Part shown: positions 9,876 to 19,068 of the stretch, piece after piece | Layout: each line of letters starts with the position of its first letter | Numbering within the stretch: the stretch's first letter is position 1 | DNA from: Desulfurellaceae bacterium | GTDB taxonomy: Bacteria > Campylobacterota_A > Desulfurellia > Desulfurellales > Hippeaceae | Reading direction: 5' to 3' | DNA: 64,000 nucleotides | Assembly (NCBI GenBank): GCA_015490005.1 | Contig: WFYS01000057.1 | Coordinates: 1 to 64,000 of the forward strand | The notes under the pieces: model-generated | What the model saw: the letters and a program-made list of their open reading frames with translations, nothing else | Told to the model about the DNA's origin: nothing | Database searches by the model: none | Translations under genes and position numbers: made by a program

Positions 9876-9903
9876 GGGGGCGCTGCCCCCTCCCGGTTTT
9901 TTT
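9876..9903. terminator. GC-rich hairpin with T-tract between convergent kinase and clpB
   Basis: GGGGGC (9876-9881), loop GCT, GCCCCC (9885-9890), then a seven-T run at 9897-9903. It stands out sharply from the AT-rich surroundings. On the plus strand it can act as an intrinsic terminator for the two-component operon, although seven bases separate stem and T-tract. It also lies at the 3' end of clpB. Confidence 0.6.
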
Positions 9904-12508
9904 AGTTTTTCTTAAACACGATTTCCCCGTTTTCTATATCTGCTATAATCTTATCACCTTTGATGAATCTTCCCTCTAATATAGCCCTTGCAAGCTTGTT
10001 TTCAATCATGTTTTGTATGTATCTTCTGAGAGGTCTTGCACCGAATACAGGATCAAAGCCTTCAGATGCGATTCTTTCAACTAACCTATCTGTAACTTCA
10101 AGTTCGTAGCCTGCCTCTTTGATTTTCTCATAGGTTTTTCTAAGTAGCAGTCTTACTATTTGCTTGATTTCGTTTCTACCCAATGGATTGAACACAATTA
10201 TTTCATCAACCCTGTTTAAGAATTCGGGCTTAAACCTTCTTTTAAGCTCGGCATTGACCTCTGTTACAGCTTTCTCAAACTCGATTTTATATTCGTCTGT
10301 GCCAGGTTCGCCCTTTATGCGTGTCAAATACTCACTTCCTATGTTGGATGTCATTATTATAACCGTATTCCTAAAATCTACCGTAACGCCTTTTGAGTCG
10401 GTTAATCTTCCATCATCAAGTACCTGCAGGAGTATATTGAATACATCAGGGTGTGCTTTCTCTATCTCATCAAGTAAGATTACAGAGTATGGTTTTCTCC
10501 TTACGGCTTCAGTTAGCTGGCCTCCCTCTTCATATCCTACGTATCCAGGCGGTGCACCTATTAATCTTGCAACGGAGTGCTTCTCCATGTATTCGCTCAT
10601 GTCAATTCTAACCATAGCTCTTTCATCATCAAACAGATACTCCGCCAAAGCCTTTGAAAGTTCGGTTTTACCCACACCCGTTGGTCCTAAGAACATAAAC
10701 GATGCAATAGGTCTATTTTTATCAGAAAGTCCAGCCCTTGATCTTAAAATCGCATCTGTTACAGATTTAACAGCGTAGTCTTGACCGACAACCCTCTCTT
10801 TAATTTTTTCTTCCATTTTTAGTAGCTTCTCTTTTTCGCTCTCTAACATCTTAGATACGGGTATACCAGTCCATTTAGAGATAATTGCAGCTATCTCTTC
10901 CTCCGTTACTTCCTCTTTCAATAGTCTGCTTTCTATGGAATTAAGCTCCTTGTTTTTCTCTTCAAGCTCCTTCTGAAGTTTTGGGAGCTCTCCGTATTTT
11001 AAGACGCTAGCCTTTTCAAAATCGCCATTCCTTTCAGCAATTTCGATTTCTGTTTTGATTTTGTCGATTTTCTCTTTTATCGAGTGGATCTCAGATATTA
11101 GTTTTTTCTCATACTGCCATCTTGCCCTGAGCTCGTTTACCTCTTCTTTTAATTGAGATAATTCTTTCTCTAAATCATCAAGCCTTTTCTTTGAATCTTT
11201 ATCATTTTCTTTCTTTAGCGCCTGTCTCTCTATCTCAAGCTGTGCTATTTTTCTATTTAGGTTATCTATGGGCTCGATTTCGCTTTCTAGTTGTGTTTTT
11301 AGACTTGCTGCTGCCTCATCTACTAAGTCGATGGCTTTATCTGGCAAAAACCTGTCTGTGATGTATCTGTGACTCAAAACGGCAGCAGCAACTAAAGCGG
11401 AGTCCTTTATTTTAACACCATGATGGACTTCGTATTTTTCTTTTAAGCCTCTCAAAATTGATATTGTATCTTCTACTGTTGGTTCTTTTACATAGACTGG
11501 TTGGAATCTCCTTTGAAGAGCAGCATCCTTTTCTATGTATTTTCTGTATTCTTTTAACGTTGTTGCACCTATACACCTCAGTTCACCGCGTGCAAGCATG
11601 GGTTTTAGCATGTTGGACGCATCCATTGAACCCTCAGCTGCTCCCGCTCCAACAACTGTGTGTAGCTCGTCTATGAACAGGATAATCCTGCCCTCAGACC
11701 TTTTAACCTCGTTGAGAACAGCTTTTAGTCTTTCCTCGAATTCACCCCTAAACTTAGCACCGGCAATTAAAGAACCCAAATCTAACTCTACAATAATTTT
11801 ATCCTTTAAACTCTCTGGCACGTCGCCTTTAGCTATTCTTTGGGCTAAACCCTCTATGATGGCGGTTTTACCTACACCGGGTTCTCCAATTAATACAGGG
11901 TTGTTTTTTGTTTTTCTTGAAAGGATTTGTATGGTTCTTCTTATTTCATCATCTCTTCCTATGACCGGGTCTAATTTGCCGCTTCTAGCTAATTCTGTTA
12001 AATCCCTTCCGTATTTCTTTAGAGCCTCGTATTTTTCCTCTGGGTTTTGGTCTGTAACCCTTACACCACCGCGTATATCAACTAAAGCTTTTAACAGGTC
12101 ATTCTTTTTTATATTAAAATGTCTAAATACTTCTGCAGCATCACAATTTTCGCTCATAGCAACTAAAAAATGCTCTATACTTATGTATTCATCTTCCATC
12201 TGATGCATCTGCTCTTCAGCTTTTCTGAAGACATCATCTAACTCTTTGGTTATATATATCTGAGCTGATGTAGAGGATGTGAACTCTACTTTTGGTATTT
12301 TCTCAATTAACTCGTCTGTGTAATTTTGGAAATCGTTAATGTTTACGCCTAGTTTTTTCAAAATAGAAACAGCTACACTTTCTTGTTCAGAAATTATGGC
12401 CCTTAAAAGATGGAGTGAACCTATTTGCTGATTTTTGTGAGCTTCTGCTATGCTTTTGGCATTTTGTAGTGCTTCTTGGGATTTTACAGTAAGTTTGTTT
12501 ATATCCAT
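9902..12508 (-). CDS. clpB: ClpB disaggregase (Hsp100)
   Basis: ClpB is the hexameric AAA+ disaggregase that works with the DnaK system. The 868-residue protein has the Clp N-domain (residues 1-145), D1 Walker [10 protein letters not shown] near 206-214, the long coiled-coil middle domain at about 400-530 that distinguishes ClpB from ClpA, and D2 Walker [10 protein letters not shown] near 607. Start: ATG with AGGAGGAAG just upstream. It lies 72 bp downstream of hsp20 on the same strand, separated by a hairpin, so it is probably expressed from the hsp20 promoter by read-through. Confidence 0.98.
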
Positions 12509-12580: not shown

Positions 12581-13015
12581 CTATTTTTGTATAGGAATTT
12601 CTTTTGGCTTTGACTCAGGTTTTTTAGGCAAAACTATTGTTAAGAGTCCGTCTTTGTATTTTGCCTGAATTTTTTCTGCATCAACATTTTCTGGCAGTAA
12701 GAAGCTTCTTGAGAATGACCCGTAACTTCTTTCCATTCTATAATAATTTTTACCTTCTTCTTTTCTTTCGAACTTTCTCTCGCCAAAAATTGTCAATGTG
12801 CTATTCTCGAGGTTGATTTTAATATCATCCTCTTTCATTCCAGGAGCTTCAATCTCTATATTGATGGCATCCTTTGTTTCATAGATGTCTACTGCAGGTA
12901 TCCATTCGTTTGTCTCTCTGTTTTTAGCTGATGTTGGCAATAAATCATCAAATACCCTGTTTAATCTCTCCTGTAGTGTTGTCAACTCTCTGAAAGGCTC
13001 CAATGCGTTTAGCAT
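12581..13015 (-). CDS. Small heat-shock protein, Hsp20/alpha-crystallin family
   Basis: This is an ATP-independent holdase that keeps unfolding proteins soluble for ClpB/DnaK. The 144-residue protein starts MLNALEPFRELTTLQ. The alpha-crystallin domain begins around residue 36 (WIPAVDIYE) and ends with the family hallmark DGLLTIVLPKK near residue 130, followed by an IPIQ tail resembling the I-x-I oligomerisation motif. I placed the start at 13015 because AAGGAGGTGG lies just upstream; a longer in-frame extension to 13045 would translate that site as codons. Expression is from the mirrored heat-shock promoter at 13058-13086. Confidence 0.95.
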   Translation of the reverse strand: MLNALEPFRELTTLQERLNRVFDDLLPTSAKNRETNEWIPAVDIYETKDAINIEIEAPGMKEDDIKINLENSTLTIFGERKFERKEEGKNYYRMERSYGSFSRSFLLPENVDAEKIQAKYKDGLLTIVLPKKPESKPKEIPIQK

Positions 13016-13057
13016 TTCTACCACCTCCTTTTTCTTTCTTTTCAATTTCCGATACTT

Positions 13058-13086
13058 AATATAACCCTTATAGTAACATTGTCAAG
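13058..13086 (-). promoter_or_regulatory. hsp20-clpB heat-shock promoter/operator
   Basis: On the minus strand TTGACA (13085-13080), a 16-base spacer and TATATT (13063-13058). The 29-base block from 13086 to 13058 matches the cbpA promoter block on the other strand at 24 of 29 positions, including the non-promoter bases CTTGACAAT and ACTATAA. CTTGACA-N7-TATAA resembles a degenerate HspR (HAIR) site, whose consensus is CTTGAGT-N7-ACTCAAG. Confidence 0.7.
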
Positions 13087-13117
13087 GTTTGTGAAAAATT
13101 TTTTTATTTTTTTGTTG

Positions 13118-13135
13118 TTCCTATTTTTCTAGGAA
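13118..13135. promoter_or_regulatory. Palindrome at the midpoint of the divergent heat-shock promoters
   Basis: TTCCTA (13118-13123), six bases, TAGGAA (13130-13135). Its centre (13126.5) is within two bases of the midpoint between the two mirrored promoter blocks. The flanks are T-rich and A-rich. This could be a second operator or a bent-DNA element; no regulator is known for it. Confidence 0.4.
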
Positions 13136-13163
13136 AAAACATGATAAAGAGCGCCTAACATAA

Positions 13164-13198
13164 CTTGACAATACCACTATAAAGTTTATATTTATAGT
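13164..13198 (+). promoter_or_regulatory. cbpA-hspR heat-shock promoter/operator
   Basis: TTGACA (13165-13170), 16 bases, TATATT (13187-13192). The block 13164-13192 is the mirror copy of the hsp20 promoter. In addition ACTATAAA (13176-13183), seven bases, TTTATAGT (13191-13198) is a perfect 8-bp inverted repeat spanning the -10. Its 7-base spacer equals that of HspR sites. HspR, encoded second in this operon, is the obvious candidate repressor. Confidence 0.7.
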
Positions 13199-13226
13199 AG
13201 CAACATTTAAAAGTGAGGTGAAGGCT

Positions 13227-14081
13227 ATGAGAGATCCGTATGAAGTGTTAGGTGTTCCCAAGAATGCAACTGAAGATGAAATAAAGAAGGCATATAGAAG
13301 ACTGGCGAGGAAATATCATCCGGATTTAAATCCGAACAATAAAGAAGCTGAAAAGAAATTTAAAGAGGTAAACGAAGCTTATTCTATTTTATCAGATCCA
13401 GAAAAGCGTAAGCAGTATGACCAATTTGGATTTTCTAATTTTGAATCTGGTGCTGCTGGAGGTTATGATTTCAGCCAATTCAAAGATTTTGGGTTTGATT
13501 TTGGGAATTTTAGAGGCAGGTCTACTTCTGAGGATTTCGATATAGGGGATTTGTTTAATAATCTGTTTGGTGCAAGTAGAAGAACAGGATTTAGGAGCAC
13601 CTATGAACCCAAAGGTGCAGATATTTATTACACAATGGATTTAGACTTTATGGATGCTGTTAAAGGAACGACTATAACATTAAATATTAATGGCGAAAAG
13701 GTTAGAGTAAAGATACCGGCGGGAATAAAAAATGGTGCGAAGTTGAAAGTACCGGGTAAAGGCCAACCAGGCCCGGGCGGCAGAGGTGATTTGCATATAA
13801 TCGTTAATGTAAAGCCAAATCCGGATTTTGAAATTAAGAACGGTAAACTCTATACAACCCTTGAGATTCCGTTAGTTACAGCATTATTTGGAGGAAAAGC
13901 AGATGTAAAAACGCCTGACGGCACTGTTAAAATTAAGATACCAAAAGGAACCCAGTGTGAGCAGGTATTTAAAATAAAGGGTAAGGGTATAGGCGGCGAT
14001 TCACTTTATGCAAAAGTGAAAGTCAATATACCTAAGAATATAAGTGAAGATGAACATATAAAACAGGTATTGGGGGAATAG
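13227..14081 (+). CDS. cbpA: DnaJ-like co-chaperone CbpA (no zinc finger)
   Basis: This is a J-domain co-chaperone that stimulates DnaK. The 284-residue protein has an N-terminal J domain with the HPD motif (YHPDLNPN), a Gly/Phe-rich linker at about residues 70-125, and two beta-sandwich substrate-binding domains with [13 protein letters not shown]. The four CxxCxGxG zinc repeats of DnaJ are absent, so this is a type II J-protein (CbpA). ATG 13227 is preferred over an in-frame GTG at 13218 because GAGGTG is correctly spaced. HspR follows after 3 bp, the same cbpA-hspR pairing known from Helicobacter and Campylobacter. Confidence 0.92.
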
Positions 14082-14084
14082 GCT

Positions 14085-14459
14085 ATGAGGAAGAAAAACG
14101 GATATTACACTATAGGAATGGTGGCCGAAATCTTGAACGTGCATCCTCATACGTTGAGGGAATATGAGAGAGAGGGGCTTATTAATCCTATAAGGACAAC
14201 TGGTAATATCAGACTTTATACCGATGATGATATTGAAGATATAAAGTTTATAAGGGAAATGACGCAGGAACTTGGCGTTAATTTAGCCGGTGTTGATATT
14301 ATAATGAGAATGAAAAGGCAGATGGAACAACTTCATGAGGTTATAGAAAATCTTGAAAAGGCTTTGAGAAAAAAGATAGAAGAGGAGCAAACAAGAAAAA
14401 GTAGCCTTGTTGAAAAAAAGCCATCTCACATAGTCGAGATAAAAATAGAAAGGGAGTAG
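14085..14459 (+). CDS. hspR: HspR-type MerR-family heat-shock repressor
   Basis: HspR represses chaperone genes by binding HAIR operators. The 124-residue protein begins with a MerR winged helix: YTIGMVAEILNVHPHTLREYEREGL is the usual recognition region, with IRLYTDDDIEDI after it, then the HspR-typical LGVNLAGVDIIMRM and a C-terminal coiled coil. In other bacteria DnaK acts as a corepressor. The position after cbpA makes it autoregulatory through the promoter at 13164-13198. It has no metal-binding cysteines, unlike MerR or CueR. Confidence 0.9.
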   Translation: MRKKNGYYTIGMVAEILNVHPHTLREYEREGLINPIRTTGNIRLYTDDDIEDIKFIREMTQELGVNLAGVDIIMRMKRQMEQLHEVIENLEKALRKKIEEEQTRKSSLVEKKPSHIVEIKIERE

Positions 14460-15702: not shown

Positions 15703-18700
15703 TTATTCTTCAAAAAGTTGTCTCCAGTTAATGAAGATTAAATTTGTTATATTATCTTTTGCTACTTTTTTTGAACCACTATAAAATTGAATGGGGCGGT
15801 TATTTTTGGTTATCACTATAACTTCTGGAGAAATGCTTTTGCCTATAATCTTAGAGCGGTCTGATTTGTCGAATTTCTCAGAGTTATTGGTGTCGTTATT
15901 TGTATTATAATCTATTCCAGCTGTTGCATTGCAATATTTCAGAGCATAAACTTTGGAGATTCCTTGGGGATTACAAATATTTTTAAGAGAAGGGGTGTAT
16001 GTAGTAAAATATACTATATTGTCAAATATGGTCGGTTTTGACAGAACTTTCTCTCCACTGCTCAATTTTACGTACCAACCATATTTATTAATTAGGCTGC
16101 TCATTATAGTTTCTTTTTCAGTATTTGAGGCTCCAGAGTCTTTATCAAGCTTGTCATCCGTTAGATCAAGTAAGTCGTTTTCTGTTAGAGGAGAATTTAA
16201 ATTATTTGGCAAAGTTACCCCATAAATTCTATTTATTATATTAGTTTTAAGAGGATGTTCCCTATCTCCTGTACCGAAGAAGATAAAATAATCGTCTCTA
16301 TTAACATTCTTATAGCCACAGTTTCCTACATATGTAACGTCAGGAGAATAAAAGGTCTTCATTGTTGTGCTTGATGTATTTGTTTTAAATACAATTTTAG
16401 GCGGTGAGAATGTATATGTAGATTCATTATAATCCATACGCCAGATTTGGCCATAAATATCTGAAAAAATTACAGCTTTTAAATATCCCTCTTCATCTTC
16501 TATAACTGACGGAGTGGAAGGAATGCAGTATTTCATATTTTTGTTGTCTTTGAAAGAGTAAGAATATAATAAATTTCCCGTATTTATATCTATCACATAT
16601 ATAGCTCTTCCTTTATCGTCGGATTTCTGTACTCCATCATCTTCTTTTGGATCATATCCTCCATCAAAGATGCCTATGTATTTATTTCCAGAAGATGTTC
16701 TTATTTTACTTAGCACTATTTTGGACCATGTTTGCGAAAGTTCAGAAAACCCATTTTTCTTAGGAGATATTACCCATTCGACAGACCAATTAGTAGGGTT
16801 ACTGTTTGTTATATTTAGTGCGTAATAATGAGTTCCTCCTCTTCTTTCCCCAAAAATGAGTGTTTTTGAACCCGTAATATAATTGTTGAAATATGTAATA
16901 GGGCCATCCACATAAAATAAAGGACTTTCTATCGTTTGGTCAGTAAGATTTTTTAATTTAGATAGTAAATTTCCAGGGATAAATGCTGCGACTTCCTCTC
17001 CATTTTTATCATTAAATACATGTAGCATACCATCGTTAGCGCCAACTACTATGTAAGTTTTATTATTTCCGTAATTTATCACGACAGGGTTTGAATGTAT
17101 AATACTGCCTAAAACATTTTTTCTTACACCGATTGGATAATGGTTGGAACTACCATCATCAGCATATAGATATCCATAAATATAATTTACCAGCTTATAC
17201 TTTTCATCATCTGTATCAACTCCTAGTTGTTGTTTGGTCACATTTTGAGGTAAAAATCTCACAAGATTGCTGCTTTCGATTACATATATATTTCTTGTAG
17301 AGTATGGGTCATCTAAATCGGTGTTTAACAATGTATTTCTCAAAACTTCAGCTGCTCCACCTTTTTCCACATCTCCACCATCTGCTTCACTGCTCCAATA
17401 TGATGTAGCTGAAGAAAGAAAATTTCCGTTAGTGTCAACCGCTAAATTACCTTTAGAATCAAATATTCCAAAATCTATGTTACTATTTTGGGATAGCTTG
17501 AATTTTTTTAAATTACCTATCCATCTACCGTTTTCCATTGGCTTAAAGAACGCAAAATATATGTAATCTCCATTTTCTGTTCTATTTGCTTTATTAATTG
17601 GTACGACTGGTGCCACAAATGATGCGTTTGCTGATATAACTAATCCAAGTGAATATAGGGCGTTTATAAGTTGTTGTTTATTGAAAGCCGTTAAAAACAT
17701 TCCACCACCATCAAGAGCCGTATCTTTCAAAAGAGGGGAGTTAAGCATAAATCCAAGGGCATCCACTATGATGTTTTTGCTAGAATCGGTAGGGTTTTGA
17801 ATTATAGATTTATCTTTTATACTATGTGTATACATCCAATGAGCAACATCATCCATGTAATCTGGTGGAGGGTTACTATATTGATAAGGGTCTTCAGTCC
17901 ATCCGTCATTGTCCCAATCCGAAAATGTTACTCCACTAATCCTTCGCCAGTCGTTGTCATCAGAAGGATAGCCATCAGAAATTATTATTACATAGTTTGT
18001 TGAGCAAGGTGGCAAAAGGTTTTGTTTTTTGTGAAAATGGTTATATATGTCTTGTAACGACTCACCTAGAGGAGTTCCGCCATAAGGTTTTATTTTATTT
18101 AGTTGAGTAATTATGTTTTGTCTCATTTTATCATCACTTAAAGAAGGATTTAACGGTTGTAGAATTTTTGCTCCATTTCCACGCTTACTGAATTTAGCCA
18201 ATCCCCAGTTGATTTTTCCTCTGGTGTGATTTATAACATATATTATTCCATCTCTGACTACATCTATTCTTCTTTCCATTTTGTAACCATTATATGTTCT
18301 TACCTGCCATGTTTTTTGACCATTACTGGTTTCTAAATTATACACCTGTTGCATGTTCATCCAATTGCCTGTTACAAAAAAGTAGATGTCTTTATCTCCG
18401 TTTTTTGCTACAACGTGGTCACTTGCGTCTTTACCTATTTTACTGAAACCACTAAAATACCAACCAGGTGCGTTAAGTAAGCCACCAAAACCTTTATCTG
18501 TTTTACTTCCGTCAGGATTTATTTGCCATTCGTGTAATTTTATACCTCTATCTAAAGGTAAAGGTTCTCCATCTAATAGAATAGTCCCATCGCTACTTAC
18601 CGTTAATCTTTGCGGTTTACTACTATCTAATGGGTGTAAATTACCGTTTTCGTCTATAATTGTATTTGTATGGATAACTTGGCTTGTATACCATACGTAT

Positions 18701-19068
18701 TCAGGATCTCCTGGATCCCCAGTAAAAGTGTGAGAATTTTTTATAGTTACACCTATGTTTCCTTTTACTAATAAAATTTCGTTTCTATTGAAGTGATTAT
18801 GGTAAAAACTATTGTACGTTCCGCATCCTCCAGCAATTACATCGCAGTCCCCTAATTCAGATGCCCAATCGTAGAATGCCCCATAGTCTACCGTGTGTTC
18901 ATACACTCCATAACCCATGCTCCCGGAACTATCAAACAAAATCATTACGTTTGGTCTGACTGAGACCTTATAAATATCTGTATCATAAGCTTTTGAGATG
19001 TTGTTGCTCAAGACTACAATGAAGTTTAAGATTATCAATAGCATTATGTACTTAAAAAATTTTTGCAT
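15703..19068 (-). CDS. pilY1: Type IV pilus biogenesis/adhesion protein PilY1 (PilC)
   Basis: This is a tip-associated pilus protein for adhesion and retraction control. The 1121-residue protein has a signal peptide (residues 1-28) and a von Willebrand A domain with MIDAS motif D46-S-S-G-S50, and ISDGYPSDD further on. A DWDNDGWTED loop near residue 380 looks like a calcium site. The C-terminal PilY beta-propeller carries the signature GANDGMLHVFNDKNG near residue 680 and AFIPG. Start: ATG with TAGGAGG upstream. It is the last large gene of the fimT-pilW-pilV-pilX-pilY1 operon, 10 bp after pilX. Confidence 0.92.
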   Translation of the reverse strand: MQKFFKYIMLLIILNFIVVLSNNISKAYDTDIYKVSVRPNVMILFDSSGSMGYGVYEHTVDYGAFYDWASELGDCDVIAGGCGTYNSFYHNHFNRNEILLVKGNIGVTIKNSHTFTGDPGDPEYVWYTSQVIHTNTIIDENGNLHPLDSSKPQRLTVSSDGTILLDGEPLPLDRGIKLHEWQINPDGSKTDKGFGGLLNAPGWYFSGFSKIGKDASDHVVAKNGDKDIYFFVTGNWMNMQQVYNLETSNGQKTWQVRTYNGYKMERRIDVVRDGIIYVINHTRGKINWGLAKFSKRGNGAKILQPLNPSLSDDKMRQNIITQLNKIKPYGGTPLGESLQDIYNHFHKKQNLLPPCSTNYVIIISDGYPSDDNDWRRISGVTFSDWDNDGWTEDPYQYSNPPPDYMDDVAHWMYTHSIKDKSIIQNPTDSSKNIIVDALGFMLNSPLLKDTALDGGGMFLTAFNKQQLINALYSLGLVISANASFVAPVVPINKANRTENGDYIYFAFFKPMENGRWIGNLKKFKLSQNSNIDFGIFDSKGNLAVDTNGNFLSSATSYWSSEADGGDVEKGGAAEVLRNTLLNTDLDDPYSTRNIYVIESSNLVRFLPQNVTKQQLGVDTDDEKYKLVNYIYGYLYADDGSSNHYPIGVRKNVLGSIIHSNPVVINYGNNKTYIVVGANDGMLHVFNDKNGEEVAAFIPGNLLSKLKNLTDQTIESPLFYVDGPITYFNNYITGSKTLIFGERRGGTHYYALNITNSNPTNWSVEWVISPKKNGFSELSQTWSKIVLSKIRTSSGNKYIGIFDGGYDPKEDDGVQKSDDKGRAIYVIDINTGNLLYSYSFKDNKNMKYCIPSTPSVIEDEEGYLKAVIFSDIYGQIWRMDYNESTYTFSPPKIVFKTNTSSTTMKTFYSPDVTYVGNCGYKNVNRDDYFIFFGTGDREHPLKTNIINRIYGVTLPNNLNSPLTENDLLDLTDDKLDKDSGASNTEKETIMSSLINKYGWYVKLSSGEKVLSKPTIFDNIVYFTTYTPSLKNICNPQGISKVYALKYCNATAGIDYNTNNDTNNSEKFDKSDRSKIIGKSISPEVIVITKNNRPIQFYSGSKKVAKDNITNLIFINWRQLFEE

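Follow-up and report, generated by a model that had tools for sequence, protein, structure and literature searches.

In a stretch of 64,000 nucleotides from a Hippea-type member of the Desulfurellales (the window, meant at its full length; genome G000, contig C57), we found that the divergent heat-shock operons hsp20-clpB and cbpA-hspR start from promoters sharing a 29-base block. Both promoters very probably carry built-in operators resembling the HspR-associated inverted repeat (HAIR), through which HspR, the MerR-family repressor encoded in the second operon, would repress hsp20-clpB and cbpA-hspR alike; we draw this reading from sequence comparison. The shared motif is conserved in relatives, recurs in trans in a sister family and is apparently confined to this locus, and the other chaperone operons carry the controlling inverted repeat of chaperone expression (CIRCE).

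13058–13086, minus strand: hsp20-clpB promoter block (−35 TTGACA at 13085–13080, −10 TATATT at 13063–13058, 16-base spacer)
13164–13192, plus strand: cbpA-hspR promoter block (−35 TTGACA at 13165–13170, −10 TATATT at 13187–13192, 16-base spacer)
13066–13086, minus strand: predicted HAIR-like operator CTTGACA-N7-TATAAGG (left arm overlapping the −35, right arm in the spacer; kept in 15 family genomes)
13164–13184, plus strand: predicted HAIR-like operator CTTGACA-N7-TATAAAG (core 4/5 paired; kept in 15 family genomes)

Read on the minus strand, 13086–13058 is CTTGACAATGTTACTATAAGGGTTATATT, and 13164–13192 on the plus strand is CTTGACAATACCACTATAAAGTTTATATT; the two agree at 24 of 29 positions, and both promoters take the form TTGACA-N16-TATATT. 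An earlier, sequence-only reading of the window had pointed out this match and its extension beyond the −35 and −10, and both points were borne out: between TTGACA and TTATATT, 10 of 15 spacer positions are identical, compared with a shuffle mean of 4.1 (p = 0.00065). The inverted pair was also recovered independently (I1; 35 nt, 80% complementary).

We compared the locus across a family set of 16 genomes, 15 of which have an HspR orthologue (G004 is the exception). All 15 have the divergent clpB-hsp20/cbpA-hspR arrangement together with both blocks, and in them the two promoters read CTTGACA-N7-TATNA(A/G)G-N-TTATATT with little variation. Alignment of the orthologous regions, which the sequence-only reading had proposed as a check on the non-promoter bases, gave a clear outcome: the spacer bases are kept on both sides in these 15 genomes, are different from those of control promoters, and appear again in genomes with unlinked operons. 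Four family sites have a perfect CTTGA-N11-TCAAG core (L021 on the hsp20 side; L025, L028 and L029 on the cbpA side), from which the cbpA-side operator of the window differs by one mismatch. In most Hippea-family genomes 66–78 bp separate the two CTTGACA elements. The layout is also kept in the Desulfurella-like genomes of the same order (G016–G018), with the elements just 14 bp apart, and in a genome of another family of the class (G021) they are 21 bp apart. Both blocks are retained even with this short central stretch, and we regard them as a pair of separate operators, not as a single composite. The proposal of a compact two-sided operator for Hsp20, ClpB and CbpA holds as far as HspR-type control of both sides is concerned, and not as a composite built around a central element.

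A likeness between two promoters could also mean that the block is just a strong promoter of the sigma-70 type that has an extended consensus and no operator. The hexamers are near consensus, the 16-base spacers are equal, and CTTGACA by itself is undiagnostic, since it is also the −35, with equal spacing, of the hrcA promoters in these genomes. The spacers, however, separate the two cases. Mean spacer identity is 0.71 between the cbpA and hsp20 sides, compared with 0.39 to hrcA and 0.31 to shuffled spacers. In a sister family of the same class (f4), hsp20-clpB and cbpA-hspR lie on different contigs, yet the spacers of the two promoters (cbpA, CTTGAAATGAYTYGACTAAAC; hsp20, CTTGACATATATCGACTAAAG in G022) agree in register in all three genomes, where 9, 9 and 11 of 16 positions match (p = 0.011, 0.006 and 0.0008). 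As these promoters are unlinked and still have a common spacer motif, the motif acts in trans. A spacer conserved family-wide and in trans, unlike the hrcA spacers, together with the lack of a third copy among the best 150 candidates of a genome-wide profile search, where a general promoter type should have one, makes the promoter-only explanation improbable.

The sister family also links the motif to HAIR. Its right arms, (A/G)CTAAAG or ACTAAAC, are one or two bases off the Streptomyces HAIR arm ACTCAAG and reach 6/7 to the HAIR consensus, and the Hippea family has a right arm shifted to TATNA(A/G)G. The sites lie at heat-shock promoters and are conserved beyond the promoter elements, as expected of a HAIR operator. 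Several points weigh against an assignment to HspR and HAIR. The right arms in the window match HAIR weakly (4/7 and 3/7; hrcA controls 2–3/7), those of the Desulfurella-like genomes are even weaker (3/7), and the left arm cannot be told apart from the −35. Against NF047375, the HspR family model, the window's HspR scores 103.3 bits (E = 5e-30), the top of 19 models and slightly short, by 1.7, of the cut-off of 105; all 22 aligned HspR orthologues match this model. For the HAIR core (CTTGA(GT)-N7-(AC)TCAAG, 21-bp span), the window copies pair at 4/5 and 3/5 and rank among the weaker HAIR-like sites compared with relatives. With right arms this weak in the window, HAIR membership rests on the relatives. 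CTTGACA-N7-TATAA, which the sequence-only reading had singled out for its HAIR-like spacing, is present in both blocks; as a stand-alone signature we rejected it, for it occurs 5 times in the genome compared with 3 for a reversed control. The three further matches lie inside coding sequence (two) and upstream of a PHP-domain-like gene (one).

HspR is the best candidate binder, and hspR adjoins the sites in 15 of 15 genomes. It is similarly improbable that the block serves a different regulator, either another MerR protein or some other factor. HspR binding here is a prediction, and the genome does encode a second MerR protein (G000:C49:7204-7521). The gene for the latter, however, adjoins etf and succinyl-CoA synthetase-like genes, and its product is without the HspR-typical HPHTLREYE and LGVNLAGV stretches, whereas the blocks adjoin hspR in each family genome and have the format of HAIR. 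Copies that are mirror images within one intergenic region would also fit a recent inverted duplication of one promoter, or gene conversion between the two, with no function in common. We consider such an origin highly implausible and largely refuted by the sister family: within-genome spacer similarity (mean ~10.2/15) is not above that between genomes (0.71, i.e. 10.7/15), and the likeness stops at the motif and survives unlinking of the operons. RNA thermometers are frequent on small heat-shock genes in other bacteria, but heat control through the leaders instead of the promoters has next to no probability here, given that only weak folds are predicted for the ~30–36-nt leaders (−3.8 and −2.7 kcal/mol; z = −1.1 and +1.0), that the hsp20 fold leaves the ribosome-binding site unpaired and that neither leader matches an Rfam thermometer.

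We next consider how far the HspR-type operators extend. A profile search of the window's genome (1.62 Mb and ~86% complete, which limits genome-wide site counts) scored the best 150 candidates per genome and found two strong sites (E about 1e-7), both in this intergenic region, followed by one at E = 0.45. The profile was built from 26 family sites, which inflates the scores of those sites; its informative part is that there is no third strong site among the 150 candidates of this genome. Family-wide, the picture was the same save for a few weaker matches. Three of these, with flanks in common, resemble copies of a dispersed repeat that contains a HAIR-like palindrome: in G001, G004 and G011 (L093 ~1584–1612, L094 ~1617–1640 and the centre of L074), GGAATAGTGCAACAG-type flanks surround a near-perfect CTTGATA-N7-TATCAAG palindrome, and the G004 copy lies near a transposase-like gene. 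This is perhaps a small mobile repeat able to carry HspR-like sites. In one of the 15 genomes (G013; L095 about 1561–1586, G013:C2:10561-10586), the hrcA promoter is immediately preceded by a HAIR-like palindrome, CTTGATAGTAATATTATCAAT, which adjoins CIRCE; HspR-HrcA co-regulation as in H. pylori is possible there.

CIRCE is found on hrcA-grpE-dnaK and on groES in the window's genome, and no copy (TTAGCACTC-N9-GAGTGCTAA, up to 3 mismatches) lies within the window. HspR thus seems to control hsp20-clpB and cbpA-hspR, with the other chaperone operons left to HrcA. The complete genome of G004, a member of the genus, is without HspR, clpB and a close Hsp20 and retains hrcA and groES with CIRCE; repressor, targets and operators seem to have been lost there as a unit. 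We rejected G004 as a natural control, as the joint loss of clpB and the close Hsp20 leaves only that joint loss to be read from it, and also G019 and G023, one having no clpB match and the other its clpB at a contig edge. There is about an even chance that the HspR regulon of the Hippea family has shrunk to one bidirectional locus, with two mirror-image operators as its only strong sites, the other chaperone operons under HrcA/CIRCE, and the cassette kept or lost as a unit.

If the operator assignment is correct, each block would be a promoter of the housekeeping type into which an HspR operator is built: CTTGA, the left arm, belongs to the −35, and the 16-base spacer contains the right arm. 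The HspR produced by the cbpA-hspR operon would bind both blocks (13066–13086 and 13164–13184), cover the −35 and spacer and block RNA polymerase, thereby repressing hsp20-clpB and its own operon. Upon heat shock, HspR would be released and Hsp20, ClpB and CbpA would rise together, after which autoregulation would restore repression. DnaK or CbpA may tune HspR, by analogy with reports from other bacteria.

The genes under this predicted control are the following.

9902–12508, minus strand: clpB, disaggregase, 3′ of hsp20 (TIGR03346, 1346 bits, over cut-off)
12581–13015, minus strand: hsp20, small heat-shock protein (PF00011, 1.1e-28)
13227–14081, plus strand: cbpA, DnaJ-type co-chaperone (PF00226 and PF01556)
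14085–14459, plus strand: hspR, MerR-family repressor (NF047375 HspR the best NCBIfam match)

Judged from the ribosome-binding sites, hsp20 likely starts at ATG 13015, preceded by AGGAGGTGG, and cbpA at ATG 13227. The sequence-only reading had placed hspR in the cbpA operon, rightly: the two genes are 3 bp apart and form one operon in 15 of 15 family genomes, the chaperone-operon setting by which the HspR family is recognised. Further along the window, 15703–19068 (minus strand) encodes a protein of 1,121 amino acids similar to PilY1-type pilus proteins, its start (FDSSGSMG) being von Willebrand-like.

Two further repeats in the intergenic region had been put forward as parts of the control.

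13118–13135, no strand assigned: palindrome TTCCTA-N6-TAGGAA
13176–13198, plus strand: 8-7-8 inverted repeat over the cbpA −10 (arms 13176–13183 and 13191–13198)

Both are present, the 8-7-8 repeat exactly so, and both are probably incidental. As a second operator the 8-7-8 repeat was rejected, since 8/8 pairing is found only in the nearest relative (7/8 in one other, 2–6/8 in the remainder). The central palindrome was rejected as an operator part: it is missing from most relatives, and an inverted repeat of its length is unexceptional in this AT-rich stretch (shuffle p = 0.3). Helical phasing of the two blocks is not claimed (p = 0.04 on distinct spacings, ~0.15 with related genomes collapsed). 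A run of A- and T-tracts upstream of the hsp20 −35 (13087–13163), possibly an UP-type element, is kept throughout the Hippea family and missing in the Desulfurella-like genomes.

Our literature searches turned up no study of HspR or heat-shock control in the Desulfurellales, for which a clean candidate set of HspR operators is now available. The two-site, one-locus layout makes HspR specificity directly testable, and likewise how HspR and HrcA share the work; the hrcA promoters supply internal controls, and the sister family a case of unlinked operons.

Comparable switches are known from other bacteria. In H. pylori, a HAIR-like repeat overlapping the cbpA promoter (Pcbp) is required for HspR binding and repression (PMC6102357), and CbpA hinders HspR binding (PMC7074700), which may apply in the window's organism too. 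HspR sites of C. jejuni have a conserved strong left half and an AT-rich, weaker right half (PMC7464140), as do those described here. The window's locus shares with both species the cbpA-hspR pair, a HAIR-like repeat near the transcription start, HrcA/CIRCE as a second system and presumed autoregulation. Unlike in these species, the other chaperone operons of the window's genome have CIRCE and no HAIR-like site that we found, and the locus has a second, mirror-image operator for hsp20-clpB. In Streptomyces, Mycobacterium and Deinococcus, HspR targets clpB, and in the latter two also a small heat-shock gene, acr2 or hsp20 (PMC2687793); the same two kinds of gene are the predicted targets here. 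HspR of these three genera also controls the dnaK operon, whereas dnaK in the window's genome follows hrcA and CIRCE, and half-site positions 6–7 are CA/TA in the window versus GT/AC in their HAIR (CTTGAGT-N7-ACTCAAG). In conclusion, the locus appears to be a new example of the known HspR/HAIR switch, unusually compact and possibly a single-locus regulon.
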